Part shown: positions 3,215 to 58,789 of the stretch, in pieces
How the letters are laid out: every line of letters begins with the position of its first letter
How positions within the stretch are numbered: position 1 is the stretch's first letter
Assembly: GCA_947561715.1 (NCBI GenBank)
Contig: OX387203.1
Span: 9,486,001-9,550,000 of the forward strand
Reading direction: 5' to 3'
DNA length: 64,000 bases
DNA from: Ascidia mentula
Taxonomy: Eukaryota > Chordata > Ascidiacea > Phlebobranchia > Ascidiidae
Notes under the pieces: generated by a model
Seen by the model: the letters and a program-made list of their open reading frames with translations, nothing else
The model's database searches: none
Told to the model about the DNA's origin: nothing
Program-made: the position numbers and the translations under genes

Positions 3215-6200
3215 TTAAAGATCTTCGTCAATAATTTCGTCACCAACGAAACCGGCGTTTTCGAGTTCCAGTTTTGTCAATTCGGTCTTTGAATTTGCCA
3301 ATCTTTTGTAGACCTTATACAATATATTGGTTAAAAGCACTACATAACATGGCCTACAAAATTACAAGCTGTTAGTCGGCAAAAAGGGTACTGGAATACG
3401 TAGTAACATATCAGAGGCCTTTAGTAGCCGATATATATGTAAGATTTCATAAAATAGAAATCGTAATTTGTTAAAAAATTAAAATGTGCAACTATGCAAT
3501 TAAGGCGTTCAATCCTTGTGATTTACCCAATATTTAATTTGCGTTAATCTATTGACTCTTAAAGGAATCCATACAATCATTCTCCATACAAATTCATGTA
3601 CAATTTATGCCCTTAAAATGTTACTTTACCTGCAATGCCACAAATACGAACAGTAGGACTACCACGATTCCCGAAAGCACGTAAAGCGCCAACATTTTAA
3701 TTCTAGTTCTGCCAGACGCTGACGGTTCTTTCTTTTTCTCCCTCATCCACGACACAAAGTTTGGCGGAAGTTCTAAACCGAAAGTTTGTCACATGCCAGT
3801 TGGGGTAATTAGATTAGCTTAAATCCCCAATGAAACGTGATATTTGTGATGAATGAAACGCAAACTATACTTAAGGATAACGTGTGTTGTCAGGCAGATG
3901 TTTTATTTTTTTGTAGGTTCATGTTGGTGGGGCCTGAAATATTTTATCAAAAAATATGATATTGGTGGTTCTTTATATCATTCTTTACATATTCAGTTGA
4001 ATATTTCGTTTCAAATCACCAGTAGCCGAACAAGCAAACATAAGCAAGTTTAATTCTTACCAACGCAAGTCCTTCCGTCCCCGTGCATTCCTTCCTTGCA
4101 GAAGCATTCGTACGAACCGACCGTGTTTTCGCAAGTTGCGCTGACAGCGCACCCGGCATTTCCTTTCTGGCAGTCGTTAACATCTGTTCAACAAAATATA
4201 ACAAGCTAATATTCTGAAATAATGCATACTTTTTCCATGCTAAAGTCGCCCCTATGACAAACGCTTAACTTGGCTATTACAGCTATTACTTGGCATGTGC
4301 TGACAAAACAGTCTCCAAAATTGTTCAATGCTTTACATATTGAAAAATGGTGAACTGTTTTTTTTTTTAAAAACTAACATTAACTAACAAATAACGATCA
4401 CTATTTTGTTACTACGAACCTAAACATATCCCCAATTGAGACACGAAGCCAGTTAGACAAGTACATGAATAATTTTCTTTAGTGTTGACAAATATGGTGT
4501 TGTCTGGGCAAGTTTATAGCTACCCGAAAAAAATACATAAATTTAAACTATTTTTTTTAAGTATGGTTTCCTACAATTAAAAGCAAGGAATCTGTATCAT
4601 GAATGCTTGTTCTTGTTTTGTCGTCTTACTTAAAATTGCTGTTAACATTTTGTAAGTGTTCTGCAGCCGATTGTATTTAGATCATTGAAGGACGGACCAA
4701 GGGCATACCTGAGCAGACTGTTCCATTTCCTTTAAATCCAGGCTCGCATAAGCAAAGAAAACTTCCATCAGTGTCAACGCATCGACCGTTTTGGTGGCAA
4801 TTTGAAATCAGACTTGTGCATTCATTAACATCTGTAACAAAGGGTTTAGAATTTGTTGCTGTTCGAGACAAGTGTGTGTGTTACACTAAACACTTTTATT
4901 GCATGGACGCTAAGAGCAAGCCACATATTGAATGCTTAAACACTAATTAACCAATTTGGAAGTAAACATGTATTTTCAAACACTGGTTCGGGTGCAGAAG
5001 TTTCGGTGTTAAAACCTACTTTCACATTCCATGTTGCTGTTTTTCTGGAAGCCTGGGACGCAATCACATCGGTAACTTCCTTTTGTGTTGACGCAGACTG
5101 AATTCAAGGGGAACTACTTCCTCTTCCCATGAACTACTTCCTTGTTTGGTACAATCGTCAACGTCTGGAAAAACAGACCGTGACGTTTTTGTGTTTTACT
5201 GTTGATAACCACGAAGAAATGGCTAAGGAGATACGATTTTACTACAGAAAATATGTACCTTGATCACAACATAGACCGCTCCACCCTGGTTGACATAAAC
5301 AACCTGTAGCACTCACAGTGGCTCCATTGTAACAAATCATTTCACAACTCTCGAATTCATGCAGGATCGGACACTCCTCCCCTCCACACGTGTTATTAGT
5401 GATCACTGATCTGTTCCTGACTTTGTTGTTCGTCACACCACATGTTTGTGGACAAACGCTCCAGTTTTCCCAATCCGATACAGTGCAGTTCACTAAAATC
5501 AAGAACAAATTTAGCGATTGGAGATATCGTTCAAGCTTAATCTTTCGCAAGCTTAATGTCGCTTCTTCAGGTAAAAACTCGGGCAAATAGAGTTGTTTTT
5601 TATAGTCAGTGTCTGATGTCAAGACAGTGCACCAGCAAGTATCGTTATAGACACGTCTCATTGAAGAAATTAAGCCATTTATCATGTATTTACTGGAAAG
5701 TGTTTTTTACTAACCAGGACAACACCCAGGGTTGCACAGACGTTCCTCGCTGGCTTGCCCACTAAAGTCAGCTCCTTTGCACGATTTATCAGACAAATCT
5801 CGAGTCCGAAACTCTGTGCCATTTCCGCGTGACGTGCTACATCTAAACACAACCTTGTCAGTAAAGTAAAAACATCAGACCTATAGCGAACATAAATACC
5901 AGATATAGAACACAGCTTTTAAAATCGACAGTTCTGTGACGTTTGTTCTCAAAACTTCTGCGTCAGTTTTAGCTTACAATTCAAAAACGTTTGATAAATT
6001 TTTTGTCCTGTATAAATATCTGCTGACCATCACTTGGGCATTAATGATCGTCCACACTGTCATATGTTTGCTTATGGCCATAACAAATTACCCTGCAAGC
6101 AAAACTAATGCAAAGTTTAACCTACTCTCCCCAATTCGACCACGACGCCCAATGAATGTCTATGGGACAGCACTTGGTGTTGCATCTCTACGTTGAATAT

Positions 6201-15558: not shown

Positions 15559-18500
15559 ATGTTGAAGTTATTTGTGATATTTGTGTTGATTGGATGGGCG
15601 GAAGGTGAATGTCCGGCTGAGGACAAAAGTCTGGCTCCTCATCCCAAAACAAGTAAGTGTAGATTAAATTTAACAGTGTTACCTCCTAAATATAATTTTT
15701 GATTACACCTTAATTAAATCATTTGTCCGAAATTAAGCTTGTGTCTCGTTACAGGAGAAAAAAATCAACCGGTTTGTGAAGCTCCATATCTTGATCCTAA
15801 CTGCACTTGTCCCTCCTCCATGTTCGAATGTGCTTGCCACAAGATCGATAAATGTGGGTCCAATCAACCAGGATGTATTTGGTGGGGTTGGGTGAATAAT
15901 AATAACAACAACTGTGGAGATTGGAGCGATGAGTTAAGTGACGTTTGTCCGGTTGATACATTCCAGTGCGATTGTTTTAACACAACGTGTCCTGGAGTTC
16001 GTGGATGTGTGAATAAATTTTTTCAATGCGATGGAGTTGGCAGCTGCGGTGATTGGAGTGATGAGATTAACTGCATATGTCCTGCAGATAAGTTTGAGTG
16101 TTCATGTTACAAAACTAAAAACTGTACGTCACTGAGGAATTGCATCAGTAAATCTCAGCAATGCGATGGCATTGATCACTGCGGAGATGGGAGTGATGAA
16201 GTTAACTGCACATGTCCAGCGGATAAGTTTGAGTGTCCTTGTTACAAAACTAATAACTGTACGTCAAGCGTGGGTTGCATCAGTAAATCTCGGCAATGCG
16301 ATGGAGTGAATCACTGTGGAGATTTGAGTGATGAAGTTAACTGCACATGTCCAGCGGATAAGTTTGAATGTCATTGTTACAAATTTAAAAACTGTACGTA
16401 TGGTGGATGCATCAGTACATCTTGGGTATGCGATGGAGTGAATAGTTTCGGAGATTGGATTGGTGAGGTTAACTGCACATGTCCAGAGGATAAGTTTGAT
16501 TGTGGTTGTGTTGGATCAAAACACTGTATTAAAAATGATTTAAATTGTATTGATCGATCTTTGTTGTGTGATGGAAAACCTGACTGTATTGATGGAAGTG
16601 ATGAGACACATTATACTTGCAACTGTTCAGGTACTTACGCCAGATGTCCATGTAATACAAATAACACACAGTGCTCACTAGACGGTAGATGTATACCTTT
16701 TACATGGATAAACGATACATACGTAGATTGTGTTGATGGAACTGACGAAGTTTGTTCAGTTTCTATCATCACATGCCCATCTTGTCATGTGGTTGCTGTA
16801 ACTTGTCCAAGTGAAAAGGAAGCCAGAAACCTCATGCATACAACAGATCCATTTCCGTGCAATAAAGTTGTTAGTAAAACGTGCGCTACCGATGTTAATA
16901 ATTGTGAAGTGGTTTGTACAATTTCAACATGCAGCAAATCCTGCGAAAACTTATTTTTCTGTGAAAATCAACAACTTATTGCAGGAGAATATTTTTGTGA
17001 TAGACAACCTGATGATGGCTGTAAGGACAAAAGTGACGAAGTCCAACATGGGTTTGGGTTTAAATGTTCTGGATCAAAAAGGAAAGGTGTTTGTGTTTTA
17101 CCTCAAACCAACGTCTACGATTCAGTGGCTCAATGTTCTGACAGTTCTGATATTTGTTTCCTCAATGGACAGTTTAAATGTTTCCAGTGTTTGGACAGAA
17201 AACTGATAGTTTCAAGCAAGCAAGTTTGTGACGGTGTAGTGGATTGCTTTGATATGTCAGACGAGTGTTTGTGTGAAAATCAAACATTGTGTCGAGATAT
17301 ACGAGGAGATTGTCCCCAGAACCAAATGCATTGTAAGGAGAGTTCTACATGTGTGGACCAAGATAAGGTATTGTGTAACAAAAGTGTACAATGTGTCAAC
17401 CAAACTAACACAAAATACTGTTTAACTGGGACGACATCAGTGCAAAGTGAGTGTGTAGCAGATGACAACATTTTTACAGAAAACAATCTAAGCAACGAAT
17501 CGCTTTGCGTTTTATCTATGAAAATGTGGTTTAAACAGTCTGCATTAATATTAGGTATGTCTCTCATTAGTCACATTAGGAGTTTATATCCCATGTGGTG
17601 TGATGGATCAATCAATGATGCTATGAATGTTGTCGGAGAAATCGTTTGTCCAAACAGATTTAAATGTTTCAAAGAAGGAAAAATTAATATAGATAAACAA
17701 CGAACCTGTGATGGAATAATTGATTGCGACGACGAATCAGACGAGTTTCTGGAACTTTGTAGCAATACCCGCTACTACTGCAGAAGTAAAGGAAAGATTT
17801 CTATCGAAAGGAATCATGTTTGTGACGGAATAATGGACTGTGATGACGTATCTGATGAAAGCATATGTCATTGTGAAAATACCAGGTTTTATTGCACCAA
17901 TAAAGAACCTTTGTCTGTTGAAATAAAACTTGTACAGAACGGAATTAATGACTGCTCAGACGGAAGTGACGAATGTGTTAATTTGGCTGGAAATATATTT
18001 GCAGACGTCAACGAAATGATAGCAAACCCAGTTTATCGAGGTATCTTCTGGGTTACAGGCATCTTAGCACTGGGAGGGAATTCGTTTGTATTTGTTACAA
18101 CCACACGTGACTTGATTAAAGTTAATAAAGATCAGAATTTGTTTATCAACACAAGTGTTTTTATTCTTAACCTCTGCGTGTCTGACCTTCTCATGGGAGT
18201 TTATCTACTGGCTGTCATAATACAAGCGACTAGATTTTCTGGATCTTATTGTTTGTTTGATAAAGAATGGAGATCAAGTAGTTTGTGTTCAGGACTTGGA
18301 GCACTTGTAGTTGTATCGTCAGAAGCATCAGCCTTCACTATGACAGCTATGACCACATTTCGCCTGATATCGGCCTTTAAACCTTTCCTCATGCGAAATG
18401 TCAGTGTTATTAAAACTGTGTTTGCCGAGTTATCTTGTTGGATGTTGGCTATTTTGTTGTCAACCGTTCCTTTATTCAACGCAACTTCTGATTACTTTGT

Positions 18501-19182
18501 TACTGATGTTTGGTTCCCAAACAACTTTTATGAAACCGATTTCGTGTCAAGAGAAAACATGTCGTTACTTGCACAAAGAATTTCCACATCAGAGCCAAAG
18601 TCTTGGTACGATGTTAAACGTATAATTGAAAACGCCTTTTCACATATCTCTATCAAGGGAGAGTTTGGATATTATGGTGAAACGACCGTCTGTATGCCAC
18701 GTTTGTTTTCAACAACCAATGAGTTTGCTTGGGAATATTCAACATTCCTCATCACAATCAACTTCTTCATGTTCATTTACATGGTGGTTGCTTATTTTCT
18801 TATTTACAAGCGAAGCAACCGCATGAAAGGATCCAGAAGCACTAATGTCAGCTCTAACATGCAGAAGAGAATCACCAGGTTGATTTTGACCGACTTTTGT
18901 TGCTGGATTCCAATTTGTGTATTAGGATTTTTGAGTGTAGGAGGAGTGAAGATGCCAGGAGACGCTTATTTGTTGAGTGCTTGTCTGTTGCTTCCAATCA
19001 ACAGCGCCCTTAACCCCTTGCTCTACTCCAAAACATTGGAAGAGCAATTGTCAAAGATCAACAAATGGCTCGTTTCCAAAATATCATCATTACGTACATC
19101 AAGGAGTCCTTCTGATTTAAGTGTTAGATACAACCCCCGTGCTGAGCAGGATGGTGATAAAGTGATTGAGATTGTTGAATGA
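15559..19182 (+). CDS. LDLa-repeat, LGR/relaxin-receptor-like 7TM GPCR without leucine-rich repeats
   Basis: Two exons, 15559-15652 and 15755-19182, joined in phase by a 102-bp GT-AG intron; the joined protein is about 1173 aa. Exon 1 encodes a signal peptide (MLKLFVIFVLIGWAEG). Residues about 40-780 hold roughly a dozen LDL-receptor class A-like modules (Cys plus CDG...C.D.SDE acidic calcium-binding motifs). Residues about 790-1110 are a rhodopsin-type 7TM domain: GN in TM1, CVSDLLMG in TM2, the SSEAS stretch in TM3 typical of LGR/RXFP receptors, LILTDFCCWIPI in TM6 and NPLLY in TM7. The usual (D/E)R(Y/W) site reads TFRL. LGR relatives such as snail GRL101 and RXFP1/2 carry leucine-rich repeats between LDLa and 7TM; none is seen here. 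The LDLa modules near 16080-16480 are nearly identical, showing recent internal duplication, and one contains a run of six Asn codons. The ligand is unknown. The ORF is fully open, so this is probably a working plasma-membrane receptor. Confidence 0.9.
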
Positions 19183-24197: not shown

Positions 24198-27100
24198 ATG
24201 CTGAAAACTATTTTCGTTTGCTTATGTTTGCTGGTAATTATTCATGGTGCATCGGCATGGTAAGTATGTTCGTTTCTAACATATGCATTTGTAGTTGTTT
24301 ACATATTGGTTGTTGTTGTGCCGTTTGAGGAAATCGAATTTGCAGCAAAATGTTCGATTTACTCTAGAATTTGGACTTCTGCAGGTTGTTTTGGATTGAT
24401 TGTAACACTACGCCCTGTCAATTGAGGTGGGAAAGATGCTCACGAACTTGTGGAGGTGGAAGAATGTATCCAACAATAATTCGGAGTAAGGGAGAGTGCG
24501 GTTCCTGTAACTTGCCTTACTCGAGATCGTGCAACAATCAATGTTGCCGAGGTAATGAAACAGAGAATCGGTTTCCCCTTATTTGCTGTTCAGTAGAAAA
24601 TGAGGTTAAGTTTTCTTTAATTTATGAAACATATCAATGCGATTACAAAAAACGTGGTGTTGTGTTGGAACTGTAAGCCAATAAGTTATAGCGATACAGA
24701 TATTAGCTACATAGCGTTGTGCGCATTGCTTCGACCTATCAGTTCACATCAGTGCAGTTTGTGACTGACAACAGCTGAAAGAGAGGATTTCACTTTGCAG
24801 TTTCTTTGCACTGGGTGTCGCTGCGTTAGGTCCCAAACAAGGTACGAGCGGCTAGAGACAAACTGTATTGGAACATACCATCGCCAAGCAACTGCTTGTG
24901 ATCTAATAGTGTTGCCGGCTTGGTATCACGATGTTTATTGGCTCATTCCGTGTACATAATATACAGAAGGTGGCAATATAACAATTATAATCTACACTCC
25001 GAGTGGAAGTTAGTAGTACTCTTTATGAACAAATGTACTTTGAATTGAACCGTAATACATTTTGTGATACAAAAATTCAATCTCTGTGTTTTAAGATATC
25101 GCATTTCGACTATTAACATCATGTTTGTTTCAGTGAACTGCTATTGGGCATCATGGAGGAGTTGGGGAGAATGCTCTGCGAGCTGTGGAAGTGGAATCAG
25201 GACACGGACCCGGGGATACGGACGGAGTGCAAGTTGCGGGGGCAGTCAGTGTTACGGGGGCTCAACTTCGTCACAGACTTGTAACACAAGATGCTGTCCG
25301 GTGAACTGCGCCTGGGGACCATGGGGGCGTTACGGTTCATGCTCCGCCAATTGTGGCGGAGGAACGCAGTCTAGATCTGGCTCTAAAACAAATTCCCATT
25401 CTTTCCCGAGGGTCTTGCTTTGGGTTTTCGTATTCTTCTTGCTCGTGTAGTACTCACTCTTGCCACTCAGCCTTGCCGCATCGATTGTTGTTGGAGTTCG
25501 TGTGGTGAATATGGGACATGTTCTGTCTCTTGCGGAGGGGGAACACAGGTTAGATCAAGAAAGATCGCTTTAAGTTCCAGGCATGGAGGTTTAGCTTGTT
25601 CCGGCTTGTCGACAACCGTAAGAAGTTGCAACATCCACCCCTGTCCAATACATTGCATCTGGGGAGCGTGGAGCGAAATTGGGAAATGTTTGGTGAGTTG
25701 GAAATAAGATGAAAACAAGATCGGTGCAAGTAAAGGAACAACATGGTGGCACAACATGTGTGGGTAAAACATCCTTTAACCAATCCTGCAACACTCGGCC
25801 TTGCCCTATTGATTGTTTATGGGGAGAATGGAGCAATTACGATAAATGCTCTGTCAAACAAAACTTAGGAAAATTGTTCGATACGTAAGGCATGGGTTTA
25901 AATTGCACAGGACCAACCGAGCAGTCGCAGAGATGCAACACCCAATGTTGTCCGGTTAACTGCCAGTGGGGACAGTGGAGTAAATTTAAGGATTGTTCCA
26001 TTGAATGTGGTAACGGCACACAATATCGCAATCGACAGGTTCTGGTCGCAGCTGACTGCGGTGGTCAAGGATGTTTGGGCGAAGATACCTCGTCACAATT
26101 CTGTAACACTCACTGCTGTCCCATCGACTGCCAGTGGGTAGAGTGGAGTGATTTCGGCGAGTGTTCTGTCCCATGCGGTGGAGGCCAAAAACACCGTCAA
26201 CGCCAAGTTTCTGTGGAGCTAGCGTGTGGCGGACGATCCTGCAATGGTTCTGATATTGATTCAACACCGTGTAACACACACCCATGTCCTGTGGATTGTG
26301 TTTGGGGTAACTGGGGTGTGTGGAGCAACTGCAATGTTACCTGCGGTGGTGGATCCAGGTTAAGATCAAGAAAGGTTGACGTGGAAGCTCAGCATGGGGG
26401 ATTCGAATGCGAAGGCCAATCAGAAGAGTCAGAGTAAGTGTTTATTGAATAGAAATGCATGGTGTTTGGTACTTGTCATGAGTGGGAATGTGGCGATTTT
26501 GTGTTGGCACCAGATATCACTCAGCTTCCCATTTGTTAGATTCCCTGTTCCTAATTTGCTAAAAATTTACTGCTCATTACTTCTTTCTATAACAATAAAC
26601 AATTATTTGCAGAATCTGTGATCAAAATTGTTGCCCAGTCAAATGTGTCTGGAACAATTGGAGTGTTTGGACGCTCTGCTCCAAAACGTGCCAGAATGGT
26701 TGGTAGTTATTTGGTATGCTTTCTGGCATAGATTGAAAAAAAAACGTAACAAAATTGTTTATTTGAAGGAACGCAATCAAGGTTGAGAAGTGTCAGTGTG
26801 ACGCAAACATGCGGTGGTTCCCCTTGCAATGGCAGCTTCATGGAAGAGAGAACGTGCAATGATGTTTGTTGTCCTGAAGATTGTGTGTGGGGCCAGTGGT
26901 CAGCTTGGGGAGAGTTAGTATTTATTTTGGCTCTTGTACCTATCTAAATGTTACCGTAATGATTCGTTTTCTCTGAAGGCAATTTTCTGGAAAACAATTA
27001 CTATCAAAGTTTGACACTGCATTGCTTCATAGGATGTATAAATTAGCGATAATCAAGTTTGTATGATGCTAAAAATTAGTTGATAATTTGTCCAGATGCA

Positions 27101-32538: not shown

Positions 32539-33224
32539 TTGGATCGCTTGAAAGCATTGTTTACAGTTCCTGCAAAGAACTTGAAGGATTTACAAGAGAA
32601 ATTAAAATTATTGATCTCAAATATGGAAGAACGTTGCTTGCACCGTTTGGTTTTAGATACATTCCGTTCCATTCAGAAAATAATTGCGGAATGGGAAAAA
32701 ACACAAAAAATGCATGGAGAAATGCAAAAGGTGGCATACAGCGTTAATTTGTCGCACTATATTCTAATTTTTTTGTTTATGTAACAGGAATTCGTCTTAG
32801 AAAGGACAACAGCCGAAAGAAAGCTTATTATAAAAAAAAATACCACGATGACATGCGTTGGGTAAAACAAAGCTACCACCATCATCATCATACACTACAA
32901 TCCAGAGTTTCATTATATGTTAATCCGTACTTTATGTTTCAGATGTTGACTGAGAAAAAGGTTACAAAAGAGCAATTTGATTCCTTTTATGAAAACACCG
33001 ATATCGAGAGCCAGAAATTCGCAGAAAGTTTACCACCAGAGATTGCAAGCACACAACGTACTTCACTCAAAACGGAATTAGAAGCCGCTACAGCTTTGTG
33101 GACAGTCATCAACAACTTTCACAAATTTGTTTATGTTCGCAAGCTTTGGGATGTCGAAATGTACTTGAAGGATTTGGTATGTTGGTTTAACAAACAGAAA
33201 AAGCGCCTCGTGAAAGGTTTGTGA
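32539..33224 (+). pseudogene. 3' exons of a second atlastin/GBP-like GTPase (tail modules only)
   Basis: Two exons, 32539-32730 (64 codons) and 32943-33224 (94 codons with stop), are both AG/GT bounded and in phase. They match the last two exons of the GTPase gene at 53652-54426 in length, exon order and sequence (for example RLKALF against RLEALF, and ...FHKFVYV against ...FHKTIYV). No G domain or earlier exon is present upstream, where zinc-finger sequence abuts. They are either a duplicated fragment or the 3' part of a chimeric gene. Both reading frames are undamaged. Confidence 0.6.
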
Positions 33225-36830: not shown

Positions 36831-39800
36831 TTGGTTCATTGCTTGTACATGATATACAGTAGTTGTCAATATAACAATTATAATCTACACTCCGAGTTGA
36901 AGCTAGTAGTACTCTTTATGAACAAATGTACTTTGAATTGTACCGTAGTGAAATTTGTCATGGAAAAAAAACAATCTCTGTGTTTCAAGATATCGCATTT
37001 CCACTGTTATCCTTGTGATTGTTTCAGTGAACTGCTATTGGGCATCATGGAGGAGTTGGGGAGGATGCTCTGCGAGCTGTGGAAGTGGAATCAGGACACG
37101 GACCCGGGGATACGGCCGGAGTGCTAGTTGCGGGGGCAGTCAGTGTTACGGGGGCTCAACTTCGTCGCAGACTTGCAACACAAGATGTTGTCCGGCGAAC
37201 TGCGCCTGGGGTCCATGGGGGCGTTACAGATCGTGCTCCGCCAATTGCAACGGAGGAAAACAGTATAGATCTCGCTCTAAAACAAGATCCAATTCTTACA
37301 GAGGTTCTTGCTATGGTTCTTCGTCTTCATCTCGCTCGTGTAATGCTCACTCTTGCCCTGTAAATTGCCTTGGGGTTCATGGGGTAAGTTCGGTAGTTGT
37401 TCAACGACTTGTGGTGGAGGAACGCAGAGGAGATCAAGGGTTGTCGCCGTAAGTGCTAGGCACGGAGGTGCATCTTGTTCTGGGTCGTCAACGTCATTGC
37501 AAACTTGCAACTCACATCCTTGTCCTATCGATTGTCGTTGGAGCTCGTGGGGTGAATACGGGACATGTTCTGTCTCTTGCGGAGGGGGAACACAGGTTAG
37601 ATCAAGAAATATCGCTGTAAGTTCCAGGCATGGAGGTTTAGCTTGTTCTGGGCCATCGAAGTCATCACGTAGATCTAACTCTCAGCCTTGTCCTATTGAT
37701 TGTCGTTGGAGTTTGTGGGGTGAATACGGGACATGTTCTGTCTCTTGCGGAGGGGTATCACAGGTTAGATCAAGAAATATCGCTGTAAGTTCCAGGCATG
37801 GAGGTTTAGCTTGTTCCGGCTTGTCGATATCCGTAAGAAGTTGTAATACATTGCATCTGGGGAGCGTGGAGCGAATTTGGAAAATGTTCTGTGAGTTGTG
37901 GTGGCGGAAATAAGATGAAAACAAGATCGGTGCAAGTAAAGGAACAACATGGTGGCACAAAATGTGCGGGCAAAACATTCTTTAACCAATCTTGCAACAC
38001 TCGGCCTTGCCCTGTTGATTGTTTATGGGGAGAATGGAGCAATTACGATAAATGCTCTGTAAGTTGTGGTGCGGGAACTCAAACAAAACTTAGGAAAATT
38101 GTTTGATACGTAAGGCATGGGTTTCAAATTGCACAGGACCAACCGAGCAGTCGCAGAGATGCAATACCCAATGTTGCCCGGTTTACTGTCAGTGGGGACA
38201 GTGGAGCAAATTTCATGATTGTCCAGTTGAATGCGGGAACGGTACACAATTTCGCAATCGACAGACTCTGGTTGCAGCTGATTGAGGTGGTCAAGCATGT
38301 TTGGGCGAAGATACCTCGTCCCAATTCTGTAACACTCACTGTTGTCCCATCGATTCTCAGTGGGGAAAGCGGAGCTACTTCAGAGAGTGTTCTGTCCCAT
38401 GTGGTGGAGGCCAAAGACGCCGTCAACGACAAGTTTCCATGGAGCTCGCGTGTGGCGGAAAAACCTGCAACGGTTGAGGTATTGACTCAACACCGTGTAA
38501 CACACATCCATGTCCTGTTGATTGTGTTTGGGGTAACTGGAGTGATCAAGAAAGGTTAATATGGAAGCACAGCATGGGGGATTCGAATGTGAAGGTCAAT
38601 TATATGAGTCAGAGTAAGTATTTGGAATGCAAGAAGTTTGGTTATTGTCATATTTAAGTGGGAAGGTGGTGATTTTCCAACAACATAATATAATTTCGTG
38701 TTGTCACCAGATATTGTAGCGCAAAAGAATTTGCCCACTTGTTTGCGTTTCATTTCCAAGTTTCACGCTTTCGTTAAATCACGTATTCTTTTACGCCACG
38801 TTCTTTTTCACCTTTTGTTATTTCACCTTCCACCTGTTCACTTAAATGTTTTGTATTGATTTATATTTTTGTATTTATTATTTAAGTGTCTTGAACGCAC
38901 CAGTCACCGCATGTTGATTTGATATCGTAGCGCTAGTTCCCTTCTCACGTGACACGGTTGGGCCAATGACTGGCGAGAGAAAAGAAAAACCGGACGAACA
39001 CGAGACGCTAAGAAAAATCGTTGGGCAGACTGTTTTGGGGAGATTGTGTTTCGGCTGTGCAATTTTTATGGTTTTATGAACAAGATTTTATCTCTGAGAA
39101 CCAAGGAAAGCGTTTATTTTAAGAAGCGTAACAATATCACTAAACATGTTAATTTCCCAGTCGCTAAATTCCCAGTTCCAAGTTCGCTAAAAATGTAGTA
39201 AAGTTCACTGCTTATTGCTCATTGCTTCTTTCTATAACAATAACCAATTATTTGCCGAATCTGCAATCAAAATTGTTGCCCAGTCTACTGTGTCTGGAAC
39301 AACTGGAGTGTTTGGACGAACTGCTACAAGACGTGCGAAAACGGTTGGCTGTGCTTTGGTGTACTTCCGAGTATCTACTAAAAGTAAACCTAATGAAATA
39401 TTTTGTTTGAAAGGAAAACAGTCAAGGTTTAGAAGTGTCAGTGTGACGCAAACATGCGGTGGTTCCCCTTACAATAAAAGCTTCACGGAAGAGAGAACGT
39501 GCAATGATGTTTGTTGTCCTGCAGACAGTGGTCAGCTTGGGGAGAGTAAGTATTCATTTTGGCTACTGTACTCATATAAATGATATCTTAATGATTCATT
39601 TTCCCTTGAAGGAGATTTTCTTGAAAAAAATTACCATCAAAGTTTGACACCGCATTGTTACATAGGATATATAAAGTAACTGCAATGAAGTTTAACCCTT
39701 TACTTGCCAATAGCAGTAATTACAGGTGTGTTGCTAATTGCTGCCACCGAGATTAACTGTCTATAACTTTAGGTCTATAGACGCTAGACGAAAACCTAAA

Positions 39801-53651: not shown

Positions 53652-56600
53652 TTAGACAATAGTCTTTAAATTGTCAAATCTAGGTTTGCATAAACCCATT
53701 ACTCGCTGGAGCGACCATTCTTTCGGTTTTGTGACGAAGCGCATTTTCTGCACATCCGCTTCGACAACCCAAGATTTAAACCATAGTTTAACATTCCTGA
53801 AGAAAACGTGGGCGTCTTGAAGGGTTTGGACATAGATTGTTTTGTGAAACAAATTCACTTTTTCCCATTTTGCTAAATTAGATTTTAATTCCGATTTTAA
53901 AGCTGCATGTTTTTCCTTCCTAATATCAGCTGGTAAGTTTTCTATGAAAGCTTTGCCTATGTTTTCCACTTTGTCACGAAATAATCCCATTTGGGAACCG
54001 GTCATTTTTGTTCCAGAAAGCATCTAATAAAGATTAGGAGTTTTAAATATTACTTTTTTTAAACAAGTTTGGACAACAAAAGATGTTATTGTGGAATTTA
54101 AGGAGTGGAAAAGTAAACACAAAAATATTCCCACCCATTGCATTTCTTCATTCCATTTCTTCAAATGGAGTTGTAATAGAACTGATGATCTTTTTCGTTG
54201 AAAATTCTGGCATAAATAGATCAGCGTCTAATTATTAAATTACAAATAATTTACACAGTATGCCAATTCTCACCAAGTACAATTCATTGTATTTTTGCTG
54301 TGTTTCTATCCAATTTTGAACAGTTTCCTTTGGACAAAGAGAAAGTATTTCCTCGGTATTTGCCGAACTTCTCCATTTATTTAAACTTTTCTCGGAAATG
54401 GAAAACAGGGCCTCAAGTCGAAACATCTTAAAATTATACTGCAATAATCTGTTTGGCAAATGAACAGAAATGTTTTTTTTTATGTTTACTTACCGATTTT
54501 GTACAAGCAATGTTTTGCTTGCACAAAGAATGAATGCTTTGCATTGCCTTTTCCAATTCAACACGATTCTTTGTCTAGGAAAAATACATGTAAGTACTTA
54601 CATTTTTGCAAAAATGAACACAGGAATGTAATGCCCCACGTATTCTTTCAGTTTAGATTCAACGTCATTATGATCACTGGAGGTTAAAAACTGGGCGAAG
54701 TAGTGTTTAACGATGTTGTCCATCGCAGAATCAAGTTTTCCTTTGAAATAATCCTGCCACGTTGCTGGAAGGTTCATCAAATGATCAACAACAAAATTGC
54801 CCATCATTTTATTTTTTATACTCAGGACGTTTCTCTCAAGTATGCCTTTACTTTTTACCTGAGTAAGCGAAAAGGAAAAAATGCAGCAAGGCCTTTAGCT
54901 TTTCATGTACAAAGTTTTCTTACCTTTTTTTGAAAATTTTGAAGCACATTTTCAGATTCTTTCAAAACAGCGATAGCAGTGTTTACCTACAATATACACA
55001 GTTACTTGCATTGGACGTGGCATAAAAAATTCGTAATTGCTGCCAATCTTTGATAAACGTGTGTGTGTTTGTCTGAGTGAGGTAAGTTTCGTCACCCTAC
55101 TGTTTTTCATGTTTGACTGAACTTGTTTTCTCTTGCAATACACTTGTATCATCGTTTATGACACTTTAGGCTACACACTCAAATCCATGTAACAACTGAT
55201 AAAAGAAAAAAGTTTGTTTGCTTTTACCTGTTGTAGTTCATTATCCTCCAAAAATATCCTTAATAATAGGTCAAGTTTCTTTCCCAGTTCAATCAGCAGT
55301 TCTGTTTCGAAAGTTTTGTCCACCACATTGTCGGCTGCAACGTCCTTGAATAATTGTATTGCGTTGTCTTTTATTTTACCAAATTCTTCCTTTATTTTAT
55401 CAGCAGACAAGAAACAACGTTGGTTCACGTGTCTTCCGTATATTCTCTAAAGTCATTTGATTAGCGTTAAGCTGTTTGTAACGTACTGTTCTGTCTTCTT
55501 CACACAAACCTTAAACTCATCAAGGCATGCATCGAAACAGTCTTCCATCAACAAGCGGTATAGCTCCCACACACCTTCCTGTGCGTGAAAAGATAACAAC
55601 AAATGTTTCGTTTTGTTAGAACAAACATCAAATAAATTAAATATTATCTTATGATGTTAATGAAAATTTTTTTGAATCACAACGATAAAATAACGTCCCG
55701 GCTTATATACTAAAGTGTGCAAAATGCAAAGGCAGCACAATGCCGCATTGCCAACAACCTTAAAATATATACAGCCAATATACCCTTGAAATATTGTTGA
55801 GATTTTCTGCAATAAATATTCTTTCTTCAAGACTCTTTTTCAAATCAAGTCGACTTTGTAAAACAAAGTGCTGTAATCCAGGATTTAGTCTGTTGTCAAA
55901 CAATTTCATCACTTTATTAACAATTTTTGAATGAGTATCCTTTAAAACTTCATCGGACATGTATTTGTTTTCATGTGAGGCAACCTGAAAAATATACATC
56001 CTTAAAAGTTCACAGCAGTAATGATTAAGCGCAAGTCTGGGACGGACCTTTATTCCTGTGTAGAAAACATCTTCACTGCTCTTCAGAAGATTTGCAACAA
56101 TTGTGGTTGATAATGCCTGAATATAGTCTTAAAATTTAAAGGAATAGTTTTAACAACGTCAGACAAAAAACCTGCAAGATTTCCTTCGGACCGAATAAGT
56201 TTTTTTCAACTGTTTCCGAAATTGCCATTGCCATATTGATAAAATCCTCTCCCTTGAGCGTCGTACCATTAAGTTTCTTCACTTCGATATTGTCAAACAT
56301 TTTTTTTAGAATATTATCAGTTGCTTCCAAAAACATTGAGTCAATATCTGTGTTTAAAAAAATTTTGAAATAGTTTTTTAAACCGAAACAAACTTACAAA
56401 ACTGTAATTGATGTTACAGAAATATTGGGATACAGCAAATAAAATATGGTGCTTCGTTTTTCAGCTTGGGAATTTGGTAAAACGTTTGGCATGAAAATGC
56501 ATAAGAATAAAAAACATACCTTTTATACAAGCTCTAGTGTTGGTTTTGTTTCTGTATCCTATATTATTTCCAGGGTGCGGAAGAAGAGCGCAATTTACTT

Positions 56601-57877
56601 CTTTGAAAGATGTTTGGATATTTCTGCATAAAGATTGGTACTCTGCAGACTTTTCTTCATGTTGTTGCATTGCTTCATTTAGATGAAGTTTACCACCTTC
56701 AAAACCGAGTTCATAATCTGCGGTTGACCAGTCCCTCACAAGAAAGAGCAACGTCTACCGATTTTAACAATGCATTGTTAATGTTTTTGGTGCGTTGAAG
56801 GCAAGATTCGTCGCACAATATTACTTAAAGCAACCATCTTACCTGGTAACTTTCACACAGGTTTGCACCAAACACATGACTTCCACAATCTGAAAACGTC
56901 TGAATACAAATATTAGATTAAAAAGTGAAAGTTAGTTACGAATATTATCAATATATGTAAAAACCGACCTTCAGTTTATTCAAATGTGATGAATCTATAA
57001 TGCTCATTACATTGTAAATCTGACATGAGCTTAAAAAAGTACTTAAATAGAAGACAACAAAATCGGAAAACTCCGAATTTTTCCCGTCAAAAACACCTTG
57101 TGTATCCATGAGAAACACAGCTATCTGTAGATCCAAAAACATACATATAACCGCAGAATATTTTTTTTAAGTGTTTGTTTAATGCTGTTGTTGTTTATGG
57201 TAACTACAACACTAAACAAGGAACAGACCCACAAGGTGAAACTACACATTATAGATTGAAAATCGTTTATATTTATTACCCTGAGGAAGCCCATAGCTGA
57301 ATAGCAAGTAAAACGTCGGTCAATAAAAGTTACGTTTAATTGTGCCAGAAGGACAGATTATTAGAATAAATTCAATTCAGCTGCAAACCTTTGGGTTTTC
57401 GTTACTTTTTAGCCAAAACGGTTCACTCCAAACCAATATTCCTTCAGTGTGAGACTCAGTTCCCGGGCGCCATTCAAAATTCTTGTTTAGTTCGGCATTT
57501 TTGTCCTTTGTCCACTCGTCTTCCTGTATCCGAGGTTCAAGTTTAAAGGAAACTGAGGGAAATTTAACAAAAGAAATGTACAAAACATTTTTGGAAATAT
57601 AATGCACAAACTTTCTTTAAATGCATTTGACGGTGATGTCCTGTTTGATAAAATATATTGTCATATGAGCTAACCTGGTTTTTCACAAGAAAGTCCAAGT
57701 ATCTTGACACCAAGTTCATAAAAAAGGACTTTCCCTTTCTTAAGCATCCTGCAATTGAGTAGATTGCAACAGGGGAGTTTCGAACATCGTTTCTTCCAAA
57801 CACTTTTTCGATTTTATTTTGGTCAATCACGTGCACATATTCCTTGTTTACTTCTTTCTTCTTTGTTATTGTAACCG
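53652..57877 (-). CDS. Atlastin/GBP-like (GB1/RHD3-type) large GTPase with five helical tail modules
   Basis: Minus-strand exons: 57675-57877 (P-loop AGCLRKGKSFF), 57389-about 57610 (EWTKDKNAEL...FEWRPG..., switch I T in TEGILVW), 56969-57124 (G3 MDTQG), 56843-56899, 56520-56754 (RD motif FLVRDW, then LLPHPG), 56172-56347, 56048-56116, 55784-55984, 55510-55578, 55228-55446, 54924-54986, about 54640-54858, 54494-54574, 54274-54426 and 53652-54023 (stop). About 830 aa are covered; the N-terminal exon was not found. From 56172 on nearly every exon is phase 0. The G-domain motifs and their order are those of atlastin and guanylate-binding proteins, so GTP hydrolysis is likely. The tail is a chain of about five repeated helical modules (short exon of 63-81 nt plus exon of 150-220 nt). 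No TM hairpin is seen, so a soluble GBP-like role (membrane remodelling or cell-autonomous defence) is more likely than ER fusion. A tail-only paralogue lies at 32539. Confidence 0.8.
57281..57318 (+). ncRNA. Hammerhead-like motif, diverged
   Basis: CTGAGGAAGCCCATAGCTGA...AAACGTCGGTC and the following GTGCCAGAAGGACAGATTA match the motif and its flank in the 11.7-kb array (GTGCCAGAAGAACAATTC). It lies in an intron of the GTPase gene. GAAAC is changed to TAAAAC, so it is inactive by sequence; its value is as a footprint of a Penelope-like insertion. Confidence 0.3.
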
Positions 57878-57929
57878 CTTAAATACGACCAGACTAGTTT
57901 AAAAAATTTATTTAGTGTAGTTATTAAGA

Positions 57930-58150
57930 AGGAAGTCATTATACATCCACATATTCTGCGCCCGAATATTTGTTCGGTAGATAATGTTTAATACTGCATT
58001 TGCATACAGTTACTTACCACAAGGCGCACTTGGAAGCGCTTGCAGCACGCTTCGGAACATCAGATCACTTCACAAACTAAAGCTTCTGTAACCAATAACA
58101 TAAGTTGCTTAAATAAAAGTTTTGGACATATCACATAACGATGGATGTCC
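57930..58150 (+). pseudogene. Second kinase-like relic
   Basis: Aligns with 50640-50860 (GGAAGTCATTATACATC core and a shared AAAAGTTTTGGACATATCAC stretch). Reads GSHYTSTYSAPEYLFGR followed by a stop. It lies directly upstream of the GTPase gene on the opposite strand. Confidence 0.35.
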
Positions 58151-58789
58151 TTTACTAATAAGCGAATTGCCGTGATGTAATATTTTCAACCTTAATCGAC
58201 AGAGCACAGTAGCCCTACGTGTCCAGGATAATATGATTTTTTGGATTTCGCTTTAACCCGTCAAGAAAAAAACACTTCCATTTAGCTTGGGTGCAATGTC
58301 GGTGAAATCTGAAATATCTAAAGCTATATCTGCAAATACCAGTTCGCGTACTGGTTTAGTCACTCTCCTTGTAGGGTGCAAAGGTAAATATATATAAACG
58401 CATGTGACGTCATATCAATCCAACATGCAACTCGACTTTGCTTGTTACCGTTTATGGGTATGAGTCTGAACTAAAGTACTGAAGCGAGCAACCCTTTATT
58501 CTACAAGCGTGTTTTATAAAACTATCGCAAACCAGGAACACGTAACACAAAGCAAGGGAACGTAAGAAAGAAGGCAACATATCCGCTACGTTACACTCCG
58601 CCACACAACCCACCTCCAGAAACGACTTTAAGACTCAAAAAGGAAAACGCTCAGGAGGAGGAAGAACAATACGACCAAACCCTTAGATACACAATAGGGA
58701 AAATACGTTCGAGCAGTACGAGGTGGAAAATGATGATTGAGCGTTTCGCGCATGTCATTCTTCTGCAACTGGCACGCTTGCGAGGGTTT

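Follow-up and report, generated by a model that had tools for sequence, protein, structure and literature searches.

An anchorless atlastin-type GTPase with a tail of repeated exon pairs, from a large ascidian gene class

What takes the place of the membrane anchor in an atlastin that lacks one, and does such a GTPase stand between atlastin and the guanylate-binding proteins (GBPs)? The question is raised by a gene in a 64,000-nucleotide stretch of DNA (the window; C71:9486001-9550000) of the ascidian Ascidia mentula. An earlier note, made from the letters of the window, had described an atlastin-type GTPase with no anchor and a tail of exon pairs, in what seemed an invertebrate chordate. The host is indeed such an animal, and the observation is confirmed on a complete minus-strand model. 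Our overall reading, to which we give about an even chance, is that the gene encodes an anchorless atlastin-type GTPase with five bundle pairs, the later ones heavily diverged, that it is one of a large, mostly tandem class, and that its product would have a cytosolic, GBP-like role in defence. The genome searched comprises 195.8 Mb in 79 contigs.

The predicted gene model (58060-53652) has 17 exons and 840 residues, 2,523 nt with the stop, and no internal stop. The complete frame rules out a pseudogene for the window copy. All four G-domain motifs quoted by the note lie in this single spliced frame (GCLRKGKS at residue 58, MDTQG at 133, FLVRDW at 202 and LLPHPG at 255). The N-terminal exon that the note expected to be missing was found as E0, and the span 53652-57877 in which the gene was noticed is the gene without this first coding exon. 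About five pairs of a short and a long phase-0 exon had been counted in the tail; five are present, the fifth being completed by an added exon, E13b. The short tail exons are 69, 69, 63, 81 and 72 nt and the long ones 201, 219, 219, 153 and 372 nt, all in phase 0, and the protein ends in NLKTIV. The exons are as follows.

58018..58060, minus strand: E0, first coding exon; starts MFRSVLQALPSAPC..., ends in phase 1; conserved in the tandem copies, where it precedes E1; donor site GTAAGT
57675..57877, minus strand: E1, P-loop exon (GCLRKGKS), by atlastin alignment
57389..57523, minus strand: E2, contains HTEGILVWSE, presumably the switch I region; by comparison with tandem copies and atlastin
56969..57124, minus strand: E3, MDTQG exon, 156 nt; size and phase equal to those of the genome's own atlastin exon
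56843..56899, minus strand: E4a, 57 nt, present in the tandem copies
56520..56754, minus strand: E4, exon from FLVRDW to LLPHPG, by atlastin alignment
56172..56347, minus strand: E5, linker from the G domain to the three-helix bundle, ends ...EILQ; aligned to atlastin
56048..56116, minus strand: E6, short exon of module 1, 69 nt; place and phase as the own atlastin's 72-nt exon
55784..55984, minus strand: E7, long exon of module 1; E6 and E7 align to the atlastin three-helix bundle
55510..55578, minus strand: E8, short exon of module 2, 69 nt, by exon form and unit profile
55228..55446, minus strand: E9, long exon of module 2, 219 nt; unit profile P = 4.6e-8 jointly with E8
54924..54986, minus strand: E10, short exon of module 3, 63 nt, by tandem-copy comparison
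54640..54858, minus strand: E11, long exon of module 3, 219 nt; unit profile P = 1e-4
54494..54574, minus strand: E12, short exon of module 4, 81 nt, by exon structure only
54274..54426, minus strand: E13, long exon of module 4, 153 nt; similarity to the unit not detectable
54135..54206, minus strand: E13b, short exon of module 5, 72 nt, added here; 72-nt counterparts in divergent copies
53652..54023, minus strand: E14, long part of module 5, conserved C-terminal region and stop; conserved across copies

The head is that of an atlastin. When the 801-residue model (without E0 and E13b) was compared with solved structures by phmmer, 19 sequences matched at E ≤ 0.01, and 13 of them were atlastins (3.2e-53 to 3.3e-46, query residues 10-407). 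Next came LOC432253 (9jju) at 1.9e-28 over query residues 29-322, whereas five GBP sequences matched over only about 95 residues (1.3e-6 to 1.9e-4). The atlastin-like G domain proposed earlier is thus borne out. The atlastin alignment reaches query residue 407 and takes in E5, E6 and E7, which identifies module 1 with the three-helix bundle of atlastin. The P-loop, MDTQG, FLVRDW and LLPHPG are all kept in the window protein, and we take the P-loop arginine to be atlastin's catalytic finger.

The suggested comparison with hidden Markov models of the GBP, GBP_C and atlastin families was also run. In Pfam, only the GBP N-terminal domain (PF02263), a domain common to atlastins, scores above its cut-off (E 1.5e-43), and GBP_C (PF02841) has no match in the 801-residue model at E ≤ 1. 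Spliced relatives do match GBP_C, the modules of a related locus (L029) at 26.1 bits and the genome's own atlastin at 28.3 bits, with a cut-off of 24.3. Across the whole genome GBP_C gave no match at E ≤ 0.001, but this search was made exon by exon, 14 control genomes were equally empty, and the own atlastin and L029 match once spliced; the null therefore decides nothing and cannot show that GBPs are absent. A CaaX box, present in some GBPs, is not found at the C-terminus of the window protein. The position between atlastin and GBP that the note gave to the architecture is not supported in the sense of an evolutionary intermediate: both the head and the first module score as parts of an atlastin, and the window protein lacks a GBP_C match.

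No transmembrane (TM) segment was found in the window protein, its top 19-residue Kyte-Doolittle mean being 1.31 and lying inside the G domain, whereas in the own atlastin (L032, C67:11.38 Mb) the TM hairpin reaches a hydropathy of 2.29. The absence of a hairpin, as noticed earlier, is borne out by this difference. A hidden TM exon is thought unlikely, because E14 with its stop is conserved and the hydropathy is low. Incidentally, a relative with 16 modules (L034/L035, C67:22211000-22226500) has a glycine-rich hydrophobic end with a hydropathy of 2.29, which may enter membranes; no Pfam family scores above its cut-off for this C-terminal stretch.

The gene is far from alone. At least 154 exon-level matches to the GBP N-terminal family are present in the genome. 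Matches to the MDTQG exon, counted by hand among the matches listed, number at least 104 on six contigs; damaged copies are included in this figure, as are the true atlastin and the second class of L027 and L005. Among the matches listed, 87 of the 104 cluster in groups of three or more with gaps below 250 kb. When 15 G domains were placed in a tree (midpoint root, without GBP, the row of L026 without E1), ten rows grouped at 92/97: the window gene, L025, L026, L028, L029, L030, L033, L034, L001 and L007, the last two known by their G domains alone. Human and ascidian atlastin (99/96) fall outside this group, as do L027 and L005. As for the second class, L027 (C71:15834000-15843900) has a G domain and one bundle followed, as judged by eye, by a long coiled coil.

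Where did the repeated unit come from? In the own atlastin, the first helix of the bundle is encoded by an exon that measures exactly 72 nt and has phase 0 at both ends. It comes after an exon ending in ...SMLQ, paralleling the ...EILQ of E5, and E3 is 156 nt in both genes. Every module of the multi-module relatives consists of a short exon in phase 0 and then a long one; L034/L035 has 16 such pairs, L028 no fewer than 8 and L029 no fewer than 6.

Duplication can be seen directly in L034/L035 (C67:22.21 Mb), which has a G domain, 15 units that resemble one another and a terminal unit that has diverged. Its long exons recur every 643-751 bp (the unit is about 660 bp), and among the 14 units lying between 15 long exons, identity with the introns counted is 82-93% in all 13 neighbouring pairs (mean 87%). 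All 14 short exons that a pattern picked out there have a length of 24 codons and are bounded by AG and GT. The 16 short exons in the unit profile are all 24 codons as well, a uniformity that is not independent because the 72-nt boundary was preferred among alternatives. A second array (C67:22.235-22.248 Mb) holds 13 unit matches at E ≤ 0.1. With two units as the query against the PDB, fly atlastin matched over residues 334-415 at 3.1e-5, in register over both exons, and atlastins made up 10 of the 11 matches at E ≤ 1, the remaining one being at 0.076. Given the 72-nt exon of the own atlastin, the near-identical units of L034/L035 and the atlastin matches in the PDB, the tail of this class grew by duplication of the exon pair for atlastin's three-helix bundle, in line with the exon-pair duplication supposed in the note.

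Does this hold for each module of the window gene? HMMER with the unit profile finds module 1 clearly in the window tail (20-24 bits) and elsewhere only short weak pieces, while 177 of 200 shuffles gave some hit, the best of 4.8 bits. Profile-profile comparison was needed for module 2. A unit profile without sequences of the window clade was compared with profiles of that clade's modules, and modules 1 and 2 matched it in register over both exons (P = 2.8e-8 over 82 columns and 4.6e-8 over 79 columns). In 32 controls P did not fall below 1.7e-4, the value for module 1 compared with its own reversal, and the eight unit-profile controls were all at or above 0.059. By profile similarity, modules 1 and 2 are established as the atlastin-bundle unit. 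Module 3 is probably the same unit (P = 1e-4 over 55 columns, in the long exon), not fully secure because the lowest control came so near. Compared with each other, the window modules gave no P below 0.0021 (module 1 with module 2).

Past module 2, the tail could be an ordinary long helical stalk whose exon pairs are not duplicated modules, a course that the one bundle and coiled coil of the separate class L027 would illustrate. No similarity to the unit is detectable in module 4 (P = 0.53), and module 5 agrees with it in register only (P = 0.058 over 65 columns, at the right offset), neither value being significant. We nevertheless consider a plain stalk improbable, as the first two modules match over both exons and the third at 1e-4, kin match at modules 2 and 3 as well (15.7 and 9.2 bits in L036, 9.3 and 10.4 bits in L037), and exon-pair duplication can be read off L034/L035 itself. 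Set against the multi-module class, the window gene thus has five exon pairs, with bundle homology in modules 1-2 and probably in 3; the assignment of module 5 as a unit would draw on register and exon form, that of module 4 solely on exon form.

The claim that each pair gives a similar helical unit accordingly stands for modules 1 and 2 and probably 3, and not for module 4 or, beyond register, module 5. The structure prediction suggested in the note returned all-helical models in which the long exon folds as a helical hairpin, at a low mean predicted local distance difference test score (58 for E14 alone, 63 for E8+intron+E9) that is too weak to establish three-helix bundles. The best PDB match of module 5 (0.0015) was a spike-protein construct in which no stretch passes alone, and it was taken as chance.

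Profiles built from fewer sequences gave P values of 2.2e-8, 1.6e-6, 0.045, 0.51 and 0.028 for modules 1-5, with 0.0022 as the lowest of 48 controls. Besides modules 4 and 5 and the margin of module 3, several results, that control value among them, weigh against our overall reading. No atlastin came up when the PDB was searched with five-sequence profiles for modules 2 and 5. In L032, a further intron splits the long part of the bundle, and the modules lack that intron. Finally, the inner order of the tree is mostly without resolution, and the tree includes no GBP.

Is the class alive? E14 is matched 30 times in the genome, and 14 of these matches are to other copies (122-123 residues, 78-100% identity). 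The frame is kept in 8 of the 14 other full-length tandem loci on C71; seven of these eight have all 17 exons with AG/GT at every tested site, and the eighth, L018, has a changed E0. The other six deviate from the whole model (L012, L022, L023 and L024 by frameshift, L014 by one stop, L017 by partial deletion of E11), so part of the cluster is decaying. A further copy, L020b, is truncated at its locus end. The same exon series is found in a distant clade on C71, in which L025 has every exon from E1 to E14, E13b included, with about 30-67% identity to the window exons where the window exon is itself matchable. L009 and L010 hold most exons; in the former E14 is broken and E9 carries a stop, and the latter has no E1 hit. 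L026, L036 and L037 retain many exons of the series.

Selection was estimated from 36 pairs among the nine intact copies, pairs that are not independent of one another, as the pooled ratio of nonsynonymous to synonymous differences (pN/pS). The G domain gave 0.48, with nonsynonymous below synonymous divergence (dN < dS) in 36 of 36 pairs, and E5 gave 0.38 (32 of 36). For modules 1-5 the ratios were 0.73, 0.49, 0.83, 0.73 and 0.84, and dN < dS was seen in 25, 35, 17, 24 and 26 of the 36 pairs. Constraint is stronger on the head than on most of the tail. The higher ratio of the tail fits changing targets or relaxed constraint, and the latter would count against our overall reading.

These numbers bear on whether a burst of tandem copying simply left decaying duplicates with little present function. 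Six deviating copies out of 14, relic exons in the window (32539-33209), a tail pN/pS of up to 0.84 and a module 3 with dN < dS in just 17 of 36 pairs would all be expected of such a burst. The window copy and eight others, on the other hand, are open across about 840 codons, and the G domain is held at 0.48 with dN < dS in every one of the non-independent pairs, which makes mere decay very improbable in our judgement.

Two traces of the family lie elsewhere in the window. At 32539-33209 (plus strand) there are three terminal exons like E13, E13b and E14, from a relative of the divergent clade; the segment looks like a gene relic because no G-domain match lies beside it among the matches listed. 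The segment 50637-51028 is 73% identical to the promoter and first-exon region of the main gene (57918-58314) in the same orientation and, with no family exons found alongside, is probably another relic.

What could the protein do? In the reading that we prefer, GTP would pair the heads as in atlastin and GBP, the P-loop arginine and the DTQG and RD motifs being kept. Without a membrane hairpin, the protein would work in the cytosol and be recruited in soluble form, and it might assemble with itself into a GBP-like coat or tether on the membranes of intruders or vesicles. The stacked three-helix bundles would make a long rigid arm, with a faster-changing tail surface that may pick the target. 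The likeliest biological role would be cell-autonomous defence, for which we infer support from the expansion pattern, from analogy with GBPs (PMC8565484, PMC9005921) and from the silkworm BmAtlastin-n (PMC4926086).

A housekeeping or tissue-specific membrane tether, in which the class would have retained the tethering function of atlastin, the longer arm spans a wider gap and membrane contact is made by another part or a partner protein, would also suit G-domain motifs that are atlastin's, and the terminal segment of L034/L035 equals atlastin's TM in hydropathy (2.29). However, the window gene lacks such a segment, its end being a conserved non-hydrophobic region, and more than 100 exon copies, largely clustered and with damaged members, would by general knowledge be unusual for a housekeeping tether. 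We regard this explanation as rather unlikely.

Returning to defence, a wider picture may be offered tentatively, and we hold it to be somewhat doubtful. This ascidian would have drawn from atlastin a large, fast-changing system of cell-autonomous defence, in a lineage without found GBPs (as reported for Ciona). Arm length would be set by the number of bundle exon pairs, five here and 16 in the relative. Some members would be soluble and others would end in a hydrophobic hairpin, and they would serve as coats driven by GTP or as arms that attack membranes.

Other features of the window are as follows.

15718-19182, plus strand: single 1154-residue open frame with low-density lipoprotein receptor class A repeats (Pfam 5e-44), followed by an apparent seven-helix receptor, judged by eye, with no Pfam receptor match at E ≤ 0.001
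5242-5706, minus strand: thrombospondin type 1 repeats (5242-5703 by Pfam, the rest by eye)
25049-26437, plus strand: thrombospondin type 1 repeats (25889-26437 by Pfam, the rest by eye)
36952-37913, plus strand: thrombospondin type 1 repeats, by eye
around 61280, plus strand: thrombospondin type 1 repeats, by eye

The locus thus belongs to a chordate genome with more than 100 atlastin-type G-domain exon copies, in which stalks were multiplied and, in the window gene, the anchor was lost. Bundle number offers one simple variable for testing how arm length affects a machine of the dynamin family, and the class may show how atlastin-like proteins acquired new, possibly immune, jobs. A review, in the part accessible to us, leaves open whether atlastins assumed defence functions in invertebrates without GBPs (PMC9005921); the exon models and intact copies make that question testable. 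GBPs are reported as not found in Ciona in the available text of PMC4926086, and other immune GTPases (GIMAP) are described in lancelets in that of PMC12373286.

Among known systems, the gene is most like atlastin (human ATL1 and ATL3, fly and the own L032), with which it shares the G motifs, the linker, the first three-helix bundle and several intron places and phases. It differs in having no TM hairpin, four extra module pairs and many tandem copies, and it lacks the further intron that splits the long part of the bundle in L032. GBP1, GBP2 and GBP5 are likewise soluble GTPases of the dynamin superfamily that carry a long helical tail, but the G-domain match to GBPs is weak, there is neither a GBP_C match nor a CaaX box, and the tail has five exon-pair modules. 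The middle domain of GBPs consists of two three-helix bundles with a common helix, according to the accessible part of PMC9005921. The match to LOC432253 is one of G domains and stops before the modules. Dictyostelium Gnbp, as far as the available text of PMC8565484 describes it, resembles the window protein in that the helical part behind a GBP-type G domain is replaced, and differs by a predicted C-terminal TM domain and a tail without a predicted structural motif.

The closest parallel for the lost anchor is BmAtlastin-n, in the accessible part of PMC4926086 a TM-less, cytoplasmic atlastin-like GTPase of 770 residues that limits baculovirus. The window protein likewise has an atlastin G domain without TM, the comparison being with BmAtlastin-n by description only, and the layout of L027 is also reminiscent of it as described. 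No description of a multi-bundle atlastin was found in a literature search mostly outside subscription papers. TM-less atlastins were already known, and the multi-bundle tail would be what is new here.

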